This document shows, piece by piece, positions 1-58,785 of a stretch of 64,000 nucleotides of DNA (position 1 is its first letter; every line of letters begins with the position of its first letter). Below the pieces are notes generated by a model. The model was given only the letters and a program-made list of their open reading frames with translations. It had not been told where the DNA came from and made no database searches. The translations under genes and the position numbers were made by a program. This stretch comes from Gracilaria domingensis (lineage: Eukaryota; Rhodophyta; Florideophyceae; Gracilariales; Gracilariaceae): assembly GCA_022539475.1 (NCBI GenBank), contig VCMS01000037.1, positions 278,364 through 342,363 of the forward strand, written 5' to 3'.

Positions 1-3000
1 TCCGGGACGGCTTTCGATTGACGAAGTACGCGTGAAATCCCTCAAGAGGCTAAGCATCCGAGGACGCAGACGGAACTCCGATCTTTTCTCGGCTTGTGCA
101 ATGTGTATCGCCGCTTCATTCCGAACTTTGCGGATATCGCTGCACCTCTGAACGAGCTTCTTCGCAAAGGCCAGCCAGTCGATCTGGAAGAATTCGACAA
201 CCGCAAGGTCGCGGCTTTCTCGTCGCTCGTGGACGCGGTGACATCGCCACCTGTTTTATCCCTGCCTAGGGCTGGTTTGCCATATGCAGTAGATACGGAT
301 GCGAGCGACTACCAAGTCGGCTGTGCCCTATTCCAGACCACCAATGATGGCGAGCGATTGCCAATTGGGTATTGGTCAAGGAGCCTCAACGTTCACGAGA
401 GGAATTACTCGGTATCCGAGAAGGAGTGCTTGGCAGTTGTCTGGGCGTTACAGACACTGCGGCCCTATCTTATGGGGACCCGCTTCATTGTCCATACCGA
501 TCATTCGGCATTACGCTGGCTACTCTCTATAGCAGAGCCATCTGGCCGCTTGATGCGGTGGAGACTTCGCTTGTCGGAATTCGACTTCGAAATCCGTTAC
601 AAGAAAGGACTCCTGAACACTCAGGCTGATGCACTGTCCCGCTTGGAAACAGCGGCTGAAGCTGCGCCAGTCGATGATCTGGAGATACCGTGCTTCCTCG
701 TGGAAGACGGCTCGAGCGATGCCGATGAAGAATCGGAAGGATGGGACATCTACGATGCTGTTTTAGCCGTGTCTGACACGAAACCCGAACCGGGCTCTTT
801 CGTACCGATCAAGCCGGAGGAACTCATCCGGGAGCAGCACACCGACCGTTTTTGTACGGAGATTCGTAGTCGCCTAAACGGTGGAGCACAGTTGCCTTTC
901 GTCGAGAACGACCAAGGATTTCTAATCCGAACCGTCGGAAACAGGCCACAGATTGTGGTTCCGCACTCACTTCAGTCACGAGTACTGCATTTGTCGCACT
1001 ACGCGAAGTTGTCAGCCCACCCTGGTGGCAGGAAGTTGTACTACACCTTACGGAAGGACTTTTACTGGCCAGCAATGGCTTTCGACGCGTATGCCACTGT
1101 TCGTGGATGTTCTGACTGCGCGAAGAACCGCGTCAAGCTGCGGAAGTACTCCAAGAAGTTGGTACTCTTCCCTGCCAGGGCTCCACTTGAATTCGTGGCA
1201 ATTGACTTGCTCGGCGAGTTTATCCGCACTCGCCGGGGAAACCGGTTTCTACTTGTGATCACCGACCGTTTTTCTAAACTGGTACGGACTGTGCCTTTGA
1301 CGAAGGTTACCGCCAGTGCGGTCGCCCAAGCTTTCGTTACACACTGGGTTTTTGTCTACGGACCGCCGATTGACCTGTTATCGGACAATGGACCGCAGTT
1401 TACGGCTAAGTTCTTTCAGGACGTTTGCCGCATCTTGCGGATCCAAAACTGGTTTACGACAACATACCACCCCCAGAGTAATGGGCAGGTTGAACGTTTT
1501 AACCGCACAATGCTCAATGCATTACGGACATTCGTTGCCGAACATCCGTCGGAGTGGGATCAATACACCGATGCGGTGACATATGCCTACAATACGCAGG
1601 TTCATCGCACTACTCAGATCTCGCCGTTCGAGCTTGTGCTATCACGCGTTCCACCTTCGGTGGCTATCGAGCCACAGCCAACTTTGGATAAGTTCCCCTC
1701 GCCTCGTCTACACAGGGACGCCTGGAAGGCCTGGCTTAAGAACATCATTCCTACAGTTAGGCAAAACATCGATAAGGCACAAGCCGCGTACAAGCGGAAT
1801 TTCGACGCACGAATGCGCAGGGATGCCCCTCAGATCAGGGAAGGTAACTACGCCTTCCTACGGAAGGAATACTATAACCCGGAAAAGGAGAAGAGGCATA
1901 AGCTCTCTCCTATCGCGGACGGCCCCTACAGGGTTATTTCTATCACCGATACAACGGTTGTCCTCGATATTGAGGGTGAACACGAGCGTTTTTCGCGCGA
2001 TCGCGTAACGCCTGCGCCACAGCCTGTTCGTCAGGAAAAGCAACCGGAAACGCCGGACAGCGCTACGCCTACTGTGGACCAAGCCGCGACAGCGGGAGAG
2101 CGCGCTTCGTTGTCAGTCCTGCCGCATCCTAGCCGCGGACTTGCTGATTTGCCGGCAAAGCCGGAAGCTAACCCGCCAGTCTCGAACGCCGCACATGTCC
2201 ACACGCGGATACTGGCCCCTCAGGGGATACTCACCACCACCCCCGACGCTCCAACTGAGAAGGGGGAGGAGGAGGTAAGTCGCTCGATTTCGTTGTCGCC
2301 GTCGTCGACGGAAGTGCCTTTGCAGGCCTCCGGGCCGCACGCAAGTCGTGGTGAAAGCACGCGGACGCGCGACGTACAGCCGAAGATTCGGAAAGAAGCG
2401 AGAAACGCGCAGTCATCGCGGAAGCCTAAAGAGGAACGCACCACTTCGGTGGAGCACGAAGCCGGAGAACCGGAAGAACACCAGGATGTAGCTGCTGCAG
2501 AAGTCGCCGCTTCGCCCACGGATAGCACTGTACGGCCGTCACAGACGGAAGGACAAGAGCCTGCCCCAGCTGTGCAGCGTGAGACCGGTACGCCGGAAAA
2601 GAGGGTGGTAACCACCGCAGCAGCCACGTCGAATGCGGAAAGTACATGCCCGCCGCAGTCGGAGCCCGGCAGCGGCAGCGCACTCGCGTCAAAAGAAGCC
2701 GGAAGACCGGAAAAGAAGCCTGTCCAGAAAGACCGTGTTGTTACGGCAGACCCGATTTCGGGAGATTTTATTGAAGCATCGAGTGATGAAGCCGTTGAAA
2801 ACACGGAGGCAACCGCCGCAACAGCAGGCCGACATGCCACAGTAGGTGGGCAGCAGCCCAACGCTGCACACGCGCGCACGCTGCGCCAAGTGTCTGGCTT
2901 CGCCGGCGATCCGCCTCCAGTGGAGGGTGACAACACACGAGCCGGGCACGTGCCCGCTGTAAGGATTGCGGCCGCCGGAAACGGAAATTCCGAATTTGAA

Positions 3001-3603
3001 TCGGCAACGCACAGCCGTGCAACGGCGCAGGCCCCACCGCCAGCAATGCTTGGCAAGGCGTCGCCTCGGCACGTGCCACGGCACCACTCGCTGGCACACC
3101 GCATTGCGGACCGTTCACCCTCACTTCGGGAGATCTTGCCGGAACGCCGGAAGCTCGCTATTCGAGAACACCGAAGCTCGGTAACAGCCCGACAATACGG
3201 GAAGGAAAGCCAGAACTCTGGAAGCCGGAATGACATGGAAACACCATGGTCAAAATGGCTCTCGCCTGGCGTACAGGATGTCTTGCCGTCAGGACGGAAG
3301 CCGAAAGTAACCAATGAAGCCCACGACGGGAGAGGTAACAACGACACCTCGAGAGAGGATACATCGACAAAGCCGCATCCTGCGCGGAAGGTCCTCGATG
3401 AGGAGTATGTCATTGACCGTCTGATAAGTCACGGCTACGCCCCTGACGGGGAACTACTGTATCGAGTCCGTTGGTACGGCTACGCCTCTTCAGAGGATAC
3501 GCACGAGCCCATTGAGCACTTGCCTCGCTCGAAGGTCTTGCAGTACCACCGTCGCACACGGACACCGATACCGGCTACGCTGGACAAGGCCCAAGTGGGT
3601 TGA
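1..3603 (+). CDS. Retrotransposon pol polyprotein (RNase H-integrase-chromodomain), 5' partial
   Basis: This is the polyprotein that copies the element RNA and integrates the DNA in the nucleus. In the open frame from base 94 onward, RNase H spans about residues 60-183, with acidic residues D67/D69, E109, D136 and D179. The integrase zinc-binding H2C2 is H302, H309, C339, C342. The integrase core catalytic triad is D371, D431, E467, and the GPY/F module is at 610-612. From about 640 to 1105 the protein is a disordered P/E/A/T-rich linker of unusual length. A chromodomain follows (about 1110-1155, aromatic-rich, ending in a WYGY-type strand and helix), expected to steer integration to marked chromatin. 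Upstream of base 94 the frame is broken near base 47, and the TTG at 94 is not a real start. A splice-donor-like AG|GTAAGT sits at 2273-2280. Confidence 0.9.
2256..2268 (+). repeat. Polypurine-tract-like motif, copy 1 (inside pol)
   Basis: TGAGAAGGGGGAG, also found at 3974 and 5953. Only the last copy abuts an LTR. This one lies inside the coding region of the disordered linker. Confidence 0.6.
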
Positions 3604-10995: not shown

Positions 10996-11319
10996 CTATC
11001 ATTACAGAAAGTTTTCTCGCACCAGAAAGGCCAACAATCTATGTGGATGTTGTGCAATCCGTCGCACCCAGCGCACCCCTCGCCATTTGGGCCGTCTGCT
11101 TTCCCAGCCTTAGCTCAGCTTTGACCCTGCTGCCTGCTTGCTCGCTTTCGTCGTTTTCGCGCATTCGTTTCCGTTGCTTCCATGCTCCGCATAGCTCGCA
11201 GAGGACCACTCTGTTGTTCACTTCCGGGCTTCCTGCTCCATATCTGCAGCGCTTATAACGGGTTACCCCAACTTGTCCTGCTCGCTTCTCTGATAACTTA
11301 TCGATGCAGTTGTTGTCGC

Positions 11320-12907
11320 ATGATACTAATGGTGCTATTCCTCACCGTCGCGGTGGTACTAGCGCTGGCTGAAGCCGGCGACCAGTTGCCTGCATCTGGG
11401 AGTTTTAACTGTACCAATCATAATCGTAGCGCCTCCCAAAACAACGGCACAGGTTGCCTGGCATACTTCCGGTCGAACCCCAGTCTGTATGAGCGCTGTA
11501 GAGACTCTTCCAACCTGACATGCTACATCTTTTTGCAAGAACCCCCGTTCATAATCTTTGAGAAAAAATACTTCAATGCGTCCGATGACGCTTTCATACT
11601 CCAAAAGCCATTCAAATGTGATCAATTCGAACAGGGCAAAGTCGGTGGCATTGCATTCGAGTTGCACAACCTCACCTCTTCCCGCGATGACTGGTGTATG
11701 TGGGGCGGACATGCAGAACATTGCACCTTCAACCAGTTGGTCGATTTCACAGACATTTGGGCTGACGAAGGCTATCGTTTCGCTATAACCGGTCTATTGC
11801 TCGATTTACCGCAGCGTCAGTGTCGCCACCACCCCTCCGCCCCCGTTGTCGACAGTGAGATGATAATCATCGGGAAAACGGATCCTAACTTTCGCAGTTC
11901 ACGAGGACCATTTGACCAACTGATACGCCCATTTGAAACGGGAGCATGGGCTCTTTTCATCGGTTTGGTTCTCTTTGCCTTCGCCATGTCTCTAGTAATG
12001 GCCTTGCGTTTTCACTGGTCAGCAAAGCGAAGTTTAGTATCGGCGTGCTTTATCTTTGCCGGTAATTGGGAAGAGATCATGGACGATGAAGATGGTTCGC
12101 AGGCGGGTAGCATTGACAGCGATATTCGTGTGAATATTGCTAAAAAGTATGCACTCGCATCTCTTTTGTTTCGTATTGCGCTAGTGGCGCTGGTCGCCAT
12201 TTTTGCCTTGTTCTATGAGGTAGCTGTTGTTGATGTTTTGTTTCAGGCACAGAGTCAGTCTCTCTCGAAGCCGGTAACTGAGCTAACTCGCGAACAGCTC
12301 AAAGAGTTCGCGGTGCTCGATAATTCCGCTCTTGAGGATGTGTGGACTGAAATAGGTAAGTTTTCTTTCCATGCCTTTTGCGCACATATACTGGAAGATA
12401 GCAGCAGGATTGACGTTTTTCTGTACGTTTCTTTTTTCGTCTTGCTCACCGCTAGTTCGAGACGGCAAAGAGGACTGGCCAGAAGGTATTCCGTGGAAGC
12501 AATGTCGAACTGCCACCGAATGCATTGAAGATGTTAAAAACAAATCAAGTGATGCGGAATTCATGGTGACATTTGAGATTGTGGGAAAATATCTCAGTCA
12601 GAACTCAAGTTTCGGCGAATTAGCCGTTCATGAAACACGTGATGTGCTATATCAGTTTAATGGAGGGTGGTTGTACAACATGGCTGTGAATGAGGAGCGC
12701 CGTTTGAAGATAGACCGCGAGCTGGTGGGATTACGCATCAAAGGAGGCATAGAGAAACTAGTGGATGAAGCTCTGAAGGAGGACTCCAAGAAGACGATGA
12801 ACATCAGAACAATGACGATCTTGATCCCTTGCCTGATATTCGTAATCCCACCACTAATTGGGTCGATTATGGTCATGGTATTTTGGAAGACATCGCGCAA
12901 ATCCTGA
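11320..12907 (+). CDS. Ionotropic-glutamate-receptor-like ligand-gated channel, copy A
   Basis: Two exons, 11320-12355 and 12456-12907, give 495 residues. The intron is GTAAGT...GCTAG, 100 nt, and rejoins the frame exactly. An in-frame ATG at 11182 would add 46 residues, but the ATG at 11320 starts a clean signal peptide (residues 1-19). A Cys-rich extracellular lobe follows, then M1 (about 208-230), a re-entrant pore-loop candidate (238-250), M3 (about 283-306), the second ligand lobe after a KPVTEL stretch, and a final membrane segment (about 466-488). Order lobe1-M1-P-M3-lobe2-M4 is that of iGluR-type channels. The SYTANLAAF-type M3 signature is not conserved, so gating and ligand cannot be inferred. 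A solute-binding-protein/channel relative is the main alternative. Confidence 0.65.
12356..12455 (+). other. Intron of channel gene A, 100 nt
   Basis: Donor GTAAGT, acceptor GCTAG. It splits a GTT codon after its first base. Length and splice sites are the same in copy B, and the first 71 nt are identical. Confidence 0.85.
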
Positions 12908-18283: not shown

Positions 18284-18607
18284 CTATCATTACAGAAAGT
18301 TTTCTCTCATCAGAAAGGCCAACAATCTATGTGGATGTTGTGCAATCCGTCGCACCCAGCGCACCCCTCGCCATTTGGGCCGTCTGCTTTCCCAGCCTTA
18401 GCTCAGCTTTGACCCTGCAGCCTGCTTGCTCGCTTTCGTCGTTTTCGCGCATTCGTTTCCGTTGCTTCCATGCTCCGCATAGCTCGCATAGGACCACTCT
18501 GTTGTTCACTTCCGGGCTTCCTGCTCCATATCTGCAGCGCTTATAACGGGTTACCCCAACTTGTCCTGCTCGCTTCACTGATAACTTATCGATGCAGTTG
18601 TTGTCGC

Positions 18608-20225
18608 ATGATACTAATGGTGCTATTCCTCACCGTCGCGGTGGTACTAGCGCTGGCTGAAGCCGTCGACCAGTCACCTGCATCTGGGAGATTTGACTGT
18701 GACCTTCATAATCGTAGCGCCTCCCAAGACAACGGCAGAGGTTGCCTGGCATACTTCCGGTCGAACCCCAGTCTGTATGAGCGCTGTAGAGACTCTTCCA
18801 ACCTGACCTGCTACATCTTTTTGCAAGAACCCCCGTTCATAACCTTTGAGAAAAAATACTTCGATGATTCCAATGAAGCTTTCATACTCCAAAAGCCATT
18901 CAAATGTGGTCAATTCGAACAGCATTTGGGCGAAGTCGGTGGCATAAGCGGCATTGCATTCCGGTTGCACAACCTCACCTCTTCCGCCGATGACTGGTGT
19001 ATGTGGGGCGGACATGCAAAACATTGCACCTTCAACCAGTTGGTCGATTTCACAGACATTTGGGCTGACGAAGGCTATCGTTTCGCTATAACCGGTCTAT
19101 TGCTCGATTTACCGCAGCGTCAGTGTCGCCACCACCCCTCCGCCCCCGTTGTCGACAGTGAGATGATAATCATCGGGAAAACGGATCCTAACTTTCGCAG
19201 TTCACGAGGACCATTTGACCAACTGATACGCCCATTTGAAACGGGAGCATGGGCTCTTTTCATCGGTTTGGTTCTCTTTGCCTTCGCCATGTCTCTAGTA
19301 ATGGCCTTGCGTTTTCACTGGTCAGCAAAGCGAAGTTTAGTATCGGCGTGCTTTATCTTTGCCGGTAATTGGGAAGAGATCATGGACGATGAAGATGGTT
19401 CGCAGGCGGGTAGCATTGACAGCGATATTCGTGTGAATATTGCTAAAAAGTATGCACTCGCATCTCTTTTGTTTCGTATTGCGCTAGTGGCGCTGGTCGC
19501 CATTTTTGCCTTGTTCTATGAGGTAGCTGTTGTTGATGTTTTGTTTCAGGCACAGAGTCAGTCTCTCTCGAAGCCGGTAACTGAGCTAACTCGCGAACAG
19601 CTCAAAGAGTTCGCGGTGCTCGATAATTCCGCTCTTGAGGATGTGTGGACTGAAATAGGTAAGTTTTCTTTCCATGCCTTTTGCGCACATATACTGGAAG
19701 ATAGCAGCAGGATTGACGTTTTTCTGTACCTTTCTTTTTTCGTCTTGCTCACCGCTAGTTCGAGACGACAAAGAGGACTGGAAAGAAGATATTCCCTGGA
19801 AGCAATGTCCAACTGCCACCGAATGCATTGAAGATGTTAAAAACAAATCAAAGCCGGCGGAATTCATGGTGACATTTGAGATTGTGGGAAAATATCTCTT
19901 GAGTGAGAACTCAAATTGCAGCGAATTAGCCGTTCATGAAACAGGTGATGTGCTATATCAGTTTAATGGAGGGTGGTTGTACAACATGGCTGTGAATGAG
20001 GAGCGCCGTCTGAAGATAGACCGTGAGCTGGTGGGATTACGCATCGAGGAGGAAACAAAGAAACAAGTGGATGAAGCTCTGGATGCATACACATGTGGGG
20101 ACTCTAACACGGCGAAGAACATCGGAACAATGACAATCTTGATCCCTTGCCTGATATTCGTAATCCCACCACTAATTGGGTCGATTGTGGTCATGGTAGT
20201 TTGGAAGACATCGCGCAAATCCTGA
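18608..20225 (+). CDS. Ionotropic-glutamate-receptor-like ligand-gated channel, copy B
   Basis: Exons 18608-19658 and 19759-20225 give 505 residues, with the same start choice, signal peptide and membrane layout as copy A. It differs from A mainly in the extracellular lobes. Lobe 1 has in-frame insertions (an extra EQHLG-like and ISG stretch) and substitutions. Lobe 2 has a longer loop containing a Cys (AYTCGDSNTA region) before the last membrane segment. The pore region is identical in protein and DNA. This pattern suggests the two genes make channels with the same pore but different ligand-binding surfaces, or partner subunits. Ligand unknown. Confidence 0.65.
19659..19758 (+). other. Intron of channel gene B, 100 nt
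   Basis: Same donor, acceptor, length and phase as in copy A. Confidence 0.85.
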
Positions 20226-54059: not shown

Positions 54060-55226
54060 TCAGTATCCAAGTTCCGATGGAAGAATGAACCCCATATCAC
54101 TCTTCACGTTTCTCAAAGTTCGCTCAGCCTCCTCATTTGCGTGCTCAAATCCATCCTTCAAAACAGAACACAGGTAGGATTTGTCGTCGAGTAGTTCGTT
54201 GTACCTAGTCTGTATTGGAGCCAAATGTTCAGTGATGGCGTCCGTAAGCAATGGCTTGAATGTTCCCCATCTCATGTCCTGACACTCAGCTAAGACATCC
54301 TCTTTGGTTTTGTCTGTGACCAGCTGATAAATTGAAAGGAGATTGTTGCACTCGGGGCGTTGCGGATTGTCAAACTGCAATCCTTCAAACGAGTCGGTCT
54401 TGCACTTCTTCACCTTTCGCTTGATAGCCGCGGCGTCGTCAGTCATGTTTATGCGAGAATGATCATTCTCGGCGCTCTTTGACATCTTGTTAGTACCATC
54501 CTCTAGACTCATTACTCTCGCACCTGTCGTTTGCATGAGCGCCTTGGGTTCTCGAAGGGTGCGTGGGCGCTTCTTTTTACAGTACATGTCGTTGTAGCGG
54601 CGCGCAATATCTCTGGCTAATTCAATGTGCTGTCGTTGGTCTTCGCCGACAGGAACCAGATCCGGTTGATAGAGCAGCACGTCTGCTGCCATTAACACCG
54701 GGTAGTCGAAAAGGCCAACCGATACATTCTCACCCTGCTTGAGGGCCTTTTCCTTGAACTGAATCATGCGATGAAGCCAGCCAATGGGAGTGGAACAGTT
54801 CAGCAGCCAGGTAAGCTCTGCGTGCGCCTTGACATGACTCTGGATAAAAATCTTGCTCTTCTGCGGATCAATTCCGCAAGCAATGTACATGGCGACGGTC
54901 TGCAACGTGCAATCGGAAAGGGTCTTCCTGTCGTGCGGGACCGTGATGGCGTGCATATCGACGACGACGAAGAAGTTATCGTACAGCTGCTGGTTGTTGG
55001 TCCACTGTCGAATGGCGCCCAGATAGTTGCCCAGATGAAGAGCTCCGGTCGGCTGAACGCCAGAGAGCACGCGCTTCTTGCGCTGCGTGGACGCCGCGCT
55101 GCGTTGCTCCGTCTGCGGAGAGGTGACGGTCATCAACGGCGCGCGCGGTGCACGGCGCGAACATAGTAGATGACCATACGAGCACAGCCGCCTCGCCGAC
55201 AGCGGAGCGGCAACAAACGAAAACAT
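54060..55226 (-). CDS. Organellar tryptophanyl-tRNA synthetase
   Basis: 388 residues. The chosen ATG at 55226 gives a 31-residue Ser/Arg/Ala-rich presequence typical of mitochondrial or plastid import. The open frame extends further upstream but overlaps the divergent promoter and lacks family similarity. It is the bacterial type of TrpRS: SGVQPTGALHLGN (HIGH equivalent), D-x-HAIT, LLYQPDLVPVGEDQRQHIE, and NKMSKS. It charges tRNA-Trp in an organelle. The first ATG of the long open frame on the other strand lies within this start codon, so the upstream regions face each other. Confidence 0.88.
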   Translation of the reverse strand: MFSFVAAPLSARRLCSYGHLLCSRRAPRAPLMTVTSPQTEQRSAASTQRKKRVLSGVQPTGALHLGNYLGAIRQWTNNQQLYDNFFVVVDMHAITVPHDRKTLSDCTLQTVAMYIACGIDPQKSKIFIQSHVKAHAELTWLLNCSTPIGWLHRMIQFKEKALKQGENVSVGLFDYPVLMAADVLLYQPDLVPVGEDQRQHIELARDIARRYNDMYCKKKRPRTLREPKALMQTTGARVMSLEDGTNKMSKSAENDHSRINMTDDAAAIKRKVKKCKTDSFEGLQFDNPQRPECNNLLSIYQLVTDKTKEDVLAECQDMRWGTFKPLLTDAITEHLAPIQTRYNELLDDKSYLCSVLKDGFEHANEEAERTLRNVKSDMGFILPSELGY

Positions 55227-55764: not shown

Positions 55765-58700
55765 ATGGATGATTCGCTCGCGTTTGTCACGCCGGCTTCT
55801 GCCGCGCGCGTGCACACAGCTGCGGCGCGGCGCGCGACGGCCGTGTGTCGCAGGCCGCCGCGTAGCGTGCCAGTCATGAAGAAGGTGCGGCGGAAGGTAA
55901 CCACTGGTGAAGAGGATAATGCGGTGGATGTGTTTGGCGGTACGAAATTATCGCAAGAAGAGCTGCTGGCGGCTGCGCTAGGTGAGGAGCCCGCTGCCGT
56001 GGGTGTGGATGCAGATGCAGACTCGAACGCGGCACCGGTTGCAGCTCCTTCGAAGAAGAAGAAGAAGAAGCCGAAGAAGGGCGCTGTGCTCAACGACGAT
56101 GCTAATGCTGTCGATGTGTTTGGCGGCGCTTCTATGTCACAGGAGGAGCTGTTGGCCGCTGCTTTGGGCGAGGATACTGCGACTGCGGAGGCTCCCTCCT
56201 CTGCGAAGAACAAGAAAAAGTCGAAGACACCCTCTGTGCTGAACGATGATGCGAATGCTGTCGATGTATTTGCGAGTCCGTCCGCGACACAGGAACAGCT
56301 TCTGGCAGATGCTTTGGGTGAACAGCCGCAAAACAACTCTGTAAAACAATCAAAGAAGAAGAAGAAAAGTAAGGGTAAGAATGGCGTACCTGATGATTCT
56401 GACAATGCGGTGGACGTGTTCTCTGGCACCAATTTATCTCAGGAAGAACTGCTGGCTCAAGCCTTGGGAGAGTCACCTGAGGAGGAAGACAAGCAATCGC
56501 AAAAGAAAAAGAAAGGCAAGAACCAGGCTACGGCTGGTTCCGGCGAGAATGGTGTGGATGTGTTTGGCTCTGCTGACCCCTCGAAAGAAGAGCTTCTCGA
56601 CAATTCCTTGCAAGCCCCAGAACACCACTCGGCGAATGGCGTTCACAAATCCTCCAAATATGCTTCTAATGGAAGTGGGACTACAGTTTCCATGGAAGCG
56701 GACTTGTTCGAAGATGATGATGATGAGCTCGCTGACGAGCAACAACTGTCTGAAGAAGCTGTACCGGAGCCGCTCGAAGACAAACTTTTTGAACCTGATA
56801 CGGAAGTTGTCGGCGAATTTGAAGATGTTTCCAAACAATTCCGCGACTTCACCTCGGCAGGTCGCCGACAAAAGATGAAAGAAACGAGGACAGAGCGCAA
56901 TGCTGCCGAGGGCCGCTTAGCAGATGTCAAGTACGCCAACTTCGGCTCGGGTGGGGAGAAGTTTACGTCAGTTAGATTGGAGGATGTTACAATGATTTTC
57001 CGAAATACAACAGTGTTACAGGGTGTGACATGGGGCGTGAGAACCGGAGAGCGTGTTGGACTCATTGGAGAGAATGGTTCCGGGAAAACGACGCAACTTC
57101 GTATCATTGCAGGCCTATTGAAGCCAACATCAGGAGAAGTTGTGAGGTCTTCGAAAAAGACAAGAGCATCATTCTTGCGTCAAGAGTTTGTAGATGAATT
57201 GGATCCGACTCGAACTCTTCGCGAAGAGTTTTATTCTGCTTTCCACAAGGAAATGAAGCTTGCAGCGGAGTATACGAAATGCGAGAGGGATATAGCGACA
57301 GTAGGAGATGACATGGAATCGCTTGAACGTCTGCTGAACCTTTTCGAAGACCTTCGACAGCAGTGCGAAGAAAGCGATGTTTGGAACTTGGATGCAAGAA
57401 TTGACAGAGTTATGCCTGGATTGGGTTTCAGTGAAGATGACAGTGATAAACTTGTGGCGTCGTTTTCGGGTGGTTGGAAGGTTCGAATCGGTCTCGGAAA
57501 GGTGCTTCTTCAGGATCCAGACCTGCTTTTGTTGGATGAGCCCTCGAATCATTTGGATAGTGAATCTGTAGAGTGGCTCGAAGAATTCCTCCGAGTAAGC
57601 AAACTACCTATGGTTGTGGTTTCTCATGATCGCGAATTCCTGGACAAGGTGTGTACCAAGATTGTGGACATTGAAGCTGGGGAAGCCTTTGAGTATCCAG
57701 GCAACTACTCGACCTTCGTTAAACTCAAGAAGGAGCAACGAAAGGCTTGGGAGTCTGCATACGAACGCCAACAAAAGTTTATTAAGGAGCAGCAAATCTA
57801 CATCAAGAGAAATCGACGCGTTTCAGCCAGATCGAGTCAAGTTAAAAGCCGAGAGAAAATGCTCGAGCGCATGGAACGAACTGGACAAATCGTTCGGAGA
57901 CCCCCGCGTCAGGGAAAACCGCTCGTGTTTAGATTTCCTCCGGCGCCTCGGTCGGGTCGCGACTGTATTGTCATTGATGACCTTACTCATGGATATGGAG
58001 GACGCACGCTTTTCCAAGATGCTTCCATAGCGATCGAGCGCGGTGATCGAATTGCCCTGATCGGTCCCAACGGTAGTGGAAAGAGCACACTTCTGCGTCT
58101 TATTGTTGGTCTTGAAGAGCCTCAGAGCGGATCGGTTGATTGCCAAGGACTGACCAATATCAAAGTTGCGTACTACGAGCAAAACCAGGCTGATGCGCTT
58201 GACTTGGAAGTCACAGTGCTTGATACTCTTACCAGAGCCGCACCAACTGATATGAGATATGAAGACATCCGAGCTCTACTTGGAAAGTTTCTGTTTAAGG
58301 GTGACGCCGTGGAGAAGAAGGTTTCCGCGTTGAGTGGTGGGGAAAAGGCAAGGTTAGCTCTAGCGAAGATCATGCTCGAACCTGCGAATGTTCTCGTTCT
58401 CGATGAACCTGGAAATCATCTTTCAATATCAGCAAAAGAAATGCTTGAGGAAGCCTTGCAACATTTCCAGGGCACTCTACTACTTGTGAGCCACGATCGG
58501 TACTTGATTTCACAGGTTGCAACCCAGATATTGGCAGTAGAAGACAAGAGCCTTGTGTTGTACGATGGGGACTACAAAGCGTACATGGAGAAACATCAAG
58601 AGTTGAGAGAGAAACTACAAGCTCGATTCATCCCTGGTGTTTCAGAAATTAAGAGTGCTCCCAAGATAGTTGTCGAGGAACCACTCAAAATGTCGAACAA

Positions 58701-58785
58701 GAAGGAAAAGAGAAAGAAGAACTTCGGAGGAAGTGGTATCCACAGTGGCAAAACCAAAGAAATGAATGCAAAGAGATGGAACTAA
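55765..58785 (+). CDS. ABC-F translation-type ATPase with five-repeat N-terminal extension
   Basis: 1006 residues from ATG at 55765. An in-frame ATG at 55225 would add a poorly conserved GC-rich stretch, and a third ATG at residue 38 is possible. ABC-F proteins have two ATPase domains and no membrane part, and act on ribosomes. The N-terminus holds five copies of a NAVDVF-x5-QEELL-x3-LGE unit (about 51-75, 113-136, 163-186, 213-236, 261-283), separated by Lys-rich linkers. NBD1 has GENGSGKTT, the signature SFSGGWKVR and LLDEPSNHLD. NBD2 has GPNGSGKST, LSGGEKARLALAK and LDEPGNHLSIS, where the usual NHLD Asp is Ser. The core most resembles plant ABCF5, a plastid type. Localisation is not settled. 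Confidence 0.85.
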   Translation: MDDSLAFVTPASAARVHTAAARRATAVCRRPPRSVPVMKKVRRKVTTGEEDNAVDVFGGTKLSQEELLAAALGEEPAAVGVDADADSNAAPVAAPSKKKKKKPKKGAVLNDDANAVDVFGGASMSQEELLAAALGEDTATAEAPSSAKNKKKSKTPSVLNDDANAVDVFASPSATQEQLLADALGEQPQNNSVKQSKKKKKSKGKNGVPDDSDNAVDVFSGTNLSQEELLAQALGESPEEEDKQSQKKKKGKNQATAGSGENGVDVFGSADPSKEELLDNSLQAPEHHSANGVHKSSKYASNGSGTTVSMEADLFEDDDDELADEQQLSEEAVPEPLEDKLFEPDTEVVGEFEDVSKQFRDFTSAGRRQKMKETRTERNAAEGRLADVKYANFGSGGEKFTSVRLEDVTMIFRNTTVLQGVTWGVRTGERVGLIGENGSGKTTQLRIIAGLLKPTSGEVVRSSKKTRASFLRQEFVDELDPTRTLREEFYSAFHKEMKLAAEYTKCERDIATVGDDMESLERLLNLFEDLRQQCEESDVWNLDARIDRVMPGLGFSEDDSDKLVASFSGGWKVRIGLGKVLLQDPDLLLLDEPSNHLDSESVEWLEEFLRVSKLPMVVVSHDREFLDKVCTKIVDIEAGEAFEYPGNYSTFVKLKKEQRKAWESAYERQQKFIKEQQIYIKRNRRVSARSSQVKSREKMLERMERTGQIVRRPPRQGKPLVFRFPPAPRSGRDCIVIDDLTHGYGGRTLFQDASIAIERGDRIALIGPNGSGKSTLLRLIVGLEEPQSGSVDCQGLTNIKVAYYEQNQADALDLEVTVLDTLTRAAPTDMRYEDIRALLGKFLFKGDAVEKKVSALSGGEKARLALAKIMLEPANVLVLDEPGNHLSISAKEMLEEALQHFQGTLLLVSHDRYLISQVATQILAVEDKSLVLYDGDYKAYMEKHQELREKLQARFIPGVSEIKSAPKIVVEEPLKMSNKKEKRKKNFGGSGIHSGKTKEMNAKRWN

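Follow-up and report, generated by a model that had tools for sequence, protein, structure and literature searches.

A five-unit repeat array in the N-terminal tail of a probable plastid ABC-F protein of the red alga Gracilaria domingensis

ABC-F proteins carry cores that act at the ribosome, and one of their subfamilies, cpYdiF, has been described as comprising cyanobacterial and predicted chloroplast sequences, with chloroplast targeting predicted for the majority of its members (Murina et al. 2019, PMC6723617). No function for cpYdiF proteins was found in the literature searched, and the portion of the main text of PMC6723617 available to us mentions no N-terminal repeat array. Among the ABC-F proteins of animals, the N-terminal sequence of ABC50 was found to be important for the interaction with eIF2 (PMC5438103). 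Repeated binding motifs are known from plastid proteins of another kind: EPYC1, whose four 60-residue repeats are quasi-identical and contain basic motifs, drives phase separation with Rubisco (PMC6265248), and a pyrenoid linker of the red type is likewise built of tandem repeats (PMC10288592).

Here, we describe a gene of Gracilaria domingensis that encodes an ABC-F core preceded by five copies of a short acidic-hydrophobic unit. The gene lies in a 64-kb stretch of genomic DNA, the whole of which was analyzed and is referred to below as the window. The genome of the host amounts to 77.9 Mb in 680 contigs, and 11 stretches matching the LHC family (PF00504) were found in it, some of which are pieces of one gene; the host is therefore a photosynthetic eukaryote.

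Gene, core and likely plastid targeting

The gene is an open reading frame on the forward strand, at 55765-58785, whose translation gives 1006 residues. Its core contains two ABC domains, and each of the Walker A, Walker B, signature and SHDR (switch) motifs is present in two intact copies. The Pfam family ABC_tran matched twice, the ABC_tran_Xtn linker (PF12848) scored 82 bits against a cut-off of 25.9, and the NCBIfam model ribo_prot_ABC_F (NF000355) exceeded its cut-off of 380 with 441 bits, so that the ABC-F identity proposed from a sequence-only reading of this DNA was confirmed. More specific names were rejected because the score fell under the curated cut-off of each named model: EttA (PRK11819, 400 versus 599 bits), Uup (NF050005, 383 versus 900 bits), and PRK10636 (350 versus 917 bits) and PRK15064 (377 versus 762 bits), which we take to be YheS and YbiT, respectively. 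The nearest solved structures to the core are those of YheS, YbiT and EttA.

A scan of a contig collection yielded six relatives, the best of which, at 43% identity, was in a genome labeled Prochlorococcus. In 79 genomes sampled from the phylum of that genome, the core found a match at 1e-60 or better in 60, and the identity was 50-52% in 29. A tree of 40 rows, which included 15 of these 29 cyanobacterial proteins, placed the core, on a long branch (1.04), as sister to the 15 cyanobacterial rows with 100/100 support, and placed Escherichia coli Uup, EttA, YheS and YbiT elsewhere. The photosystem II reaction-centre family was matched in all 14 genomes tested from the 50-52% group and in none of six others (20 genomes in total); the match in genome G063 is a 64-bit piece only. 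On the strength of these sequence comparisons, namely the identity level, the tree grouping and the photosystem II genes of the matching genomes, we conclude that the core is of cyanobacterial descent, as is expected of a plastid protein. It probably belongs to the cpYdiF group, a label given here by the published definition and not by the profile of its authors. Membership in ABCF1/ABC50 was considered and rejected, the core being of bacterial type and standing beside cyanobacterial proteins in the tree.

The beginning of the cyanobacterial proteins also bears on the origin of the tail. Of the 29 cyanobacterial loci, 26 begin at most four residues from the start of the core; under the first-Met rule, one further locus (L038) has a reading longer by about 85 residues, and the readings of two (L042 and L045) are without a start. 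Since most of the cyanobacterial proteins begin together with the core, the 402 residues that precede it in the Gracilaria protein are most simply regarded as an addition made after the gene had entered the host. Two other loci of the Gracilaria genome may be recorded here: the reading of L009 is almost identical to the beginning of L008, an ABC-F of the cytosolic type, but has a different tail, and the match at L013 has internal stops. Both are possibly decayed copies, or else contain introns.

The start codon at 55765 stands in the context GCGCCATGG, which rates as good by the Kozak rule. It had been pointed out in advance that a later start might leave the array untranslated. The sole additional in-frame ATG between 55765 and the first unit is codon 38 (55876), which still lies 5' of unit 1; all five units are thus retained from either start, and loss of the array by initiation at codon 38 is ruled out. 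The region of the array itself is taken to be translated because the substitutions between units follow the pattern of a translated protein. The frame remains open 5' of 55765, with ATGs at 55225 and 55348, and the assignment of the start to 55765 is therefore a judgement; the two upstream ATGs, which lie at or beside 55226, the start of a divergent neighboring gene, look less likely.

This neighbor, at 54060-55226 on the reverse strand, has a likely organelle-targeting start (MFSFVAAPLSARR) and reads as a tryptophanyl-tRNA synthetase (TrpRS), a name that we assume from reading of the sequence and not from a profile. The start codons of the two genes are about 540 bases apart, and one promoter region may thus serve both of these genes, each with a likely role in organelle translation. 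Elsewhere in the window, two forward frames of 448 and 453 residues (11182-12528 and 18470-19831), about 7.3 kb apart, are nearly identical over their first 90 residues, which in sequence terms is a local duplication, and a forward frame of 1043 residues (472-3603) opens with residues suggestive of a retrotransposon RNase H/reverse transcriptase (FIVHTDHSALRWLL).

Read from 55765, the N-terminus of the ABC-F protein is MDDSLAFVTPASAARVHTAAARRATAVCRRPPRSVPVMKK, with a Phe near its start. A Phe near the N-terminus marks plastid precursors of glaucophytes and the red lineage (PMC2222254). Comparable starts were seen in the same genome in an EttA-like ABC-F (L010, MAFLPSRP) and in the TrpRS (MFSFVAAP), both of which are likely organelle proteins. 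Residues 1-37 are therefore likely to be a transit peptide of the red-algal type if translation starts at 55765, and the protein is probably imported into the plastid. Given the cyanobacterial core and this likely transit peptide, a binding partner of the tail would be expected first in the plastid.

The five units, their linkers and their history

The sequence motif VDVF occurs in the tail at residues 54, 116, 166, 216 and 264, each time within a 32-residue unit that also holds a short acidic motif of predicted helical form, S-Q-E-E-L-L-x-x-A-L-G-E, which is least strictly kept in unit 5 (Table 1). All five copies are in the frame of the ABC-F protein, and the best off-diagonal self-match of residues 1-310 scored 250, whereas 200 shuffles gave a mean of 36 and never more than 61; the presence of five repeats on this protein, claimed in the sequence-only reading, was thus borne out. 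Nine positions (N, V, D, V, F, E, L, L and L) are invariant across the units, although any two units are identical at only 10-22 of 32 residues. The spacing is 62, 50, 50 and 48 residues, for which about 50-60 had originally been given, and the ending LGE, which had been assigned to every unit, is found in units 1-4 and is missing from unit 5. A Lys cluster behind each unit, except perhaps the last, had likewise been described, and this holds: units 1-4 are followed by Lys-rich linkers, whereas the 60 residues after unit 5 contain 3 Lys and 18 Asp/Glu. Acidic and basic blocks alternate nine times along the tail, versus a shuffle mean of 2.6, and none of 2000 shuffles reached nine. At the DNA level, a repeat finder grouped units 1-4 into one 80-nt family, with units 2-4 at 64-73% identity to the first, and assigned a portion of unit 5 to a family of 21 nt; Tandem Repeats Finder did not report the array. 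Between array and core, a strongly acidic stretch carries two acidic-hydrophobic-Phe motifs, EADLF and EDKLF, which could be degenerate relatives of VDVF.

Table 1. Positions of the features of the ABC-F gene in the window
Feature	Position	Strand	Residues	Remarks
Likely plastid transit peptide	55765..55875	+	1-37	Phe in AFVTPASAAR
Repeat unit 1	55900..55995	+	46-77	Repeat finder, self-comparison
Linker 1, Lys cluster	55996..56085	+	78-107	8 Lys
Repeat unit 2	56086..56181	+	108-139	Repeat finder, self-comparison; AlphaFold2 helix QEELLAAA
Linker 2, Lys cluster	56182..56235	+	140-157	5 Lys
Repeat unit 3	56236..56331	+	158-189	Repeat finder, self-comparison
Linker 3, Lys cluster	56332..56385	+	190-207	8 Lys
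Repeat unit 4	56386..56481	+	208-239	Repeat finder, self-comparison
Linker 4, Lys cluster	56482..56529	+	240-255	6 Lys
Repeat unit 5, most divergent	56530..56625	+	256-287	No Lys cluster behind
Strongly acidic stretch	56689..56814	+	309-350	Motifs EADLF, EDKLF
ABC-F core	56971..58785	+	403 to stop	604 residues; domain and motif searches

The units appear to be old. In the six pairs among units 1-4, dN was 0.20-0.44, and dS was 1.90 for units 2 and 3 and saturated, hence not computable, for the other five pairs. Where two of these four units share a residue, any excess of identical codons over the level expected from codon usage is not significant (P 0.14-0.73 over the six pairs). Unit 5 behaves differently, since its codon sharing with unit 1 exceeds expectation (10/14, P 0.005), as does, with marginal significance, that with unit 2 (8/13, P 0.05), so that the units are not all equally old; over all ten pairs, 77 of 167 codons are shared versus 61.5 expected (P 0.018), an excess that is mainly due to unit 5. 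Because residues are conserved while codon sharing among units 1-4 does not rise significantly over chance, the simplest reading is that the units are old duplications under long constraint at the protein level, perhaps with a separate history for unit 5. Recent tandem duplication or gene conversion is not favored by the near-chance codon sharing of units 1-4, even though the total over ten pairs is slightly higher.

The composition of the tail favors disorder: mean TOP-IDP values were 0.16-0.26 for residues 1-350, versus 0.05-0.16 for residues 401-950, and 0.23 for residues 951-1000. AlphaFold2 was run on unit 2 with an alignment to which the remaining four units were added, and which thus had five rows only. 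It gave one helix of at least four residues, at residues 22-29 (QEELLAAA), after a Ser, and nothing helical behind it. Confidence was modest, with pLDDT values of 76 for the best block and 51 and 58 for the linker blocks, a mean pLDDT of 64 and a pTM of 0.23. This prediction weakly suggests that the unit is a short motif, partly pre-formed, that would firm up when bound; the helix signal may also reflect local helix propensity alone. The helix carries a net charge of -2 to -3 and, with a hydrophobic moment of 0.10-0.23, is weakly amphipathic. The proposal of an acidic-hydrophobic helix joined to a basic linker was accordingly upheld as to the predicted helix and the Lys linkers after units 1-4, with the reservation that amphipathicity is weak. 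At the start of the helix, four of the five units have S-x-x-E, letters that also spell a helix-capping box. Because CK2-type sites are not in excess in the region as a whole (7 versus 5.9 expected, P 0.38) and S-x-x-E can be read as capping boxes, regulation by CK2, as in ABC50, was dropped and is not claimed here.

Relatives of the array were sought in several collections. In the same genome, no second array was found, the array region matching itself only (nine candidates scored), and a single-unit query at E values up to 10 recovered four of the five units and no other protein; as unit 5 was missed, equally weak copies would escape this search. A six-frame scan of the whole window with two VDVF/EELL-like patterns returned the five array sites only. 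No relatives were seen among viral contigs, and plasmids gave no match (tblastn, E up to 1), results that say little about other red algae because algal nuclear genes are not expected there. None of the PDB sequences matched the tail at an E value of 10 or below, and searches of the array against NCBIfam and PHROG gave weak matches only.

Possible roles of the array

We consider it evenly balanced whether the protein is an ABC-F translation factor of the plastid whose tail, flexible and five-valent, docks on a ribosome-linked partner. A motif in five copies on a flexible charged tail is a usual form of multivalent docking element. According to this proposal, the product of the nuclear gene would enter the plastid and its transit peptide would then be removed, and the ABC core would bind the plastid 70S ribosome at the E site, as for other ABC-Fs. 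The five equivalent motifs, each consisting of N-A-V-D-V-F in extended form and then a helix capped by Ser/Thr (Q-E-E-L-L-x-x-A-L), would dock weakly and repeatedly on one partner surface, and the Lys clusters would keep the tail close to an acidic surface, that of rRNA or a different one. Through this multivalency, the ATPase would become locally enriched at its target, which might be the ribosome, an assembly intermediate or a translation factor, and the role of the tail would parallel that of the ABCF1/ABC50 N-terminal region, which serves eIF2 in the cytosol. Docking sites, as already suggested in the sequence-only reading, are thus our best guess at the function of the repeats, made by analogy, and the partner is putative.

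Other explanations place the same features in a different light. The tail could be a linker of a stromal condensate or scaffold, like EPYC1 or PYCO1, with the ABC-F core as a passenger or recruited client, and five stickers separated by basic spacers could network a multimeric partner. Valency and spacing are indeed similar, with Lys clusters and intervals of 48-62 residues here and four 60-residue repeats in EPYC1; however, the array is part of a conserved ATPase and not of a stand-alone linker, its units are more diverged than the quasi-identical repeats of EPYC1, and an acidic helix would seem ill-suited to the acidic surface of Rubisco, so that we regard both the linker and its networking mode as improbable. 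It is also rather improbable that the array arose only because a disordered tail tolerated the expansion of repeats, and that it acts as a spacer or entropic tether without specific binding. Repeats do arise readily in disordered tails, the array is known from one genome, and the codon excess between units 5 and 1 and the unequal ages of the units would fit such growth. Nine positions have nevertheless stayed invariant in five units while synonymous resemblance was lost among units 1-4, and conservation lies in the units, whereas the linkers retain mainly their Lys content.

Localization outside the plastid is a further matter. A form initiated at codon 38 or at an upstream ATG, without a working transit peptide, could be a nucleolar or cytosolic protein in which the Lys clusters serve as nuclear or nucleolar signals; the in-frame ATGs at 55876, 55348 and 55225 would all keep the whole array, and its acidic and basic charge blocks alternate, as they do in the arrays of Nopp140 and treacle. 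One cluster, KKKKKKPKK, resembles a nuclear localization signal. Against this stand the cyanobacterial core, the Phe-type targeting peptide and the good start context at 55765, together with the chance-level count of CK2-type sites, an excess of which would have supported the parallel with Nopp140, and we hold a location of this kind to be decidedly unlikely. Finally, the second helix of a Cro/CI-type helix-turn-helix, whose pattern is T/S-Q-E-E-L-A-x-x-L-G, might survive as a remnant in each unit or be mimicked by it, and the tail might bind nucleic acid. Weak matches to Pfam HTH_35 (E 0.0014, 19 bits, under the cut-off of 25) and to PHROG 769, a transcriptional repressor (E 0.064), point in this direction. 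These matches span 23 residues each, the helix net charge is negative, and there is one predicted helix of at least four residues per unit with none behind it, where at least two, one of them a recognition helix, are needed; nucleic acid binding of this type is therefore very improbable. A helix-turn-helix domain as such was rejected, in view of the score below cut-off and the single helix predicted by AlphaFold2 with modest confidence.

If the tail does act by docking, a bolder version of the idea, which is unlikely though worth stating, is that the array is a red-algal invention, five-valent and confined to this one protein, through which a plastid ABC-F is coupled to a multi-copy partner in the plastid, such as the ribosome stalk, an assembly factor or a condensate. 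Were it true, the array would be a docking or clustering device of plastid translation without a counterpart in plants or cyanobacteria. More generally, with cpYdiF ABC-Fs already in print, an old and constrained multi-copy array on one of them offers a ready bait for its partner, and it would show how an organelle translation ATPase gained a new docking device made by the eukaryote.

Comparison with known systems

Among plastid repeat proteins, EPYC1 and PYCO1 share with the Gracilaria protein a construction from repeats with several binding motifs; the comparison is one of architecture, drawn from the published descriptions available in part, and both differ in being stand-alone, Rubisco-binding scaffolds without an ABC core. 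Within the same genome, the EttA-like ABC-F at L010 has a similar transit-type start (MAFLPSRP) and a short Lys-rich stretch before its core; in contrast, no VDVF unit occurs in its reading, and it groups with EttA in a different subfamily.

The N-terminal region of ABC50 is reportedly involved in partner binding, as Paytubi is said to have described in 2008. ABCF1/ABC50 of animals is the closest functional parallel, having, like the Gracilaria protein, a long N-terminal region ahead of the ABC-F core that, in the accessible descriptions, binds a partner. The likeness is a functional one by description. ABCF1/ABC50 belongs to another subfamily and compartment, is a target of CK2, whereas CK2-type sites in the Gracilaria tail are at chance level, and has no regular array mentioned for it in the parts of PMC5438103 at hand.

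The cpYdiF proteins are closest in the core, as indicated by the 50-52% identity to cyanobacterial proteins and the 100/100 grouping, and the likely transit peptide, if translation starts at 55765, would fit the chloroplast targeting predicted for most of them; the Gracilaria protein differs from the cyanobacterial members in carrying about 360 residues, the array and the acidic stretch, between transit peptide and core. The sequence-only reading knew of no such array on ABC-F proteins. This stands for the regular array, as five units of this kind on a plastid ABC-F were not found in the literature searched, part of which was available as excerpts, and does not extend to long partner-binding N-terminal regions, which are known from ABCF1/ABC50. 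ABC-F proteins, the cpYdiF group and partner-binding N-terminal regions are thus already known; what appears to be new, as judged from the literature searched, is an array of five regular units on a probable plastid ABC-F.
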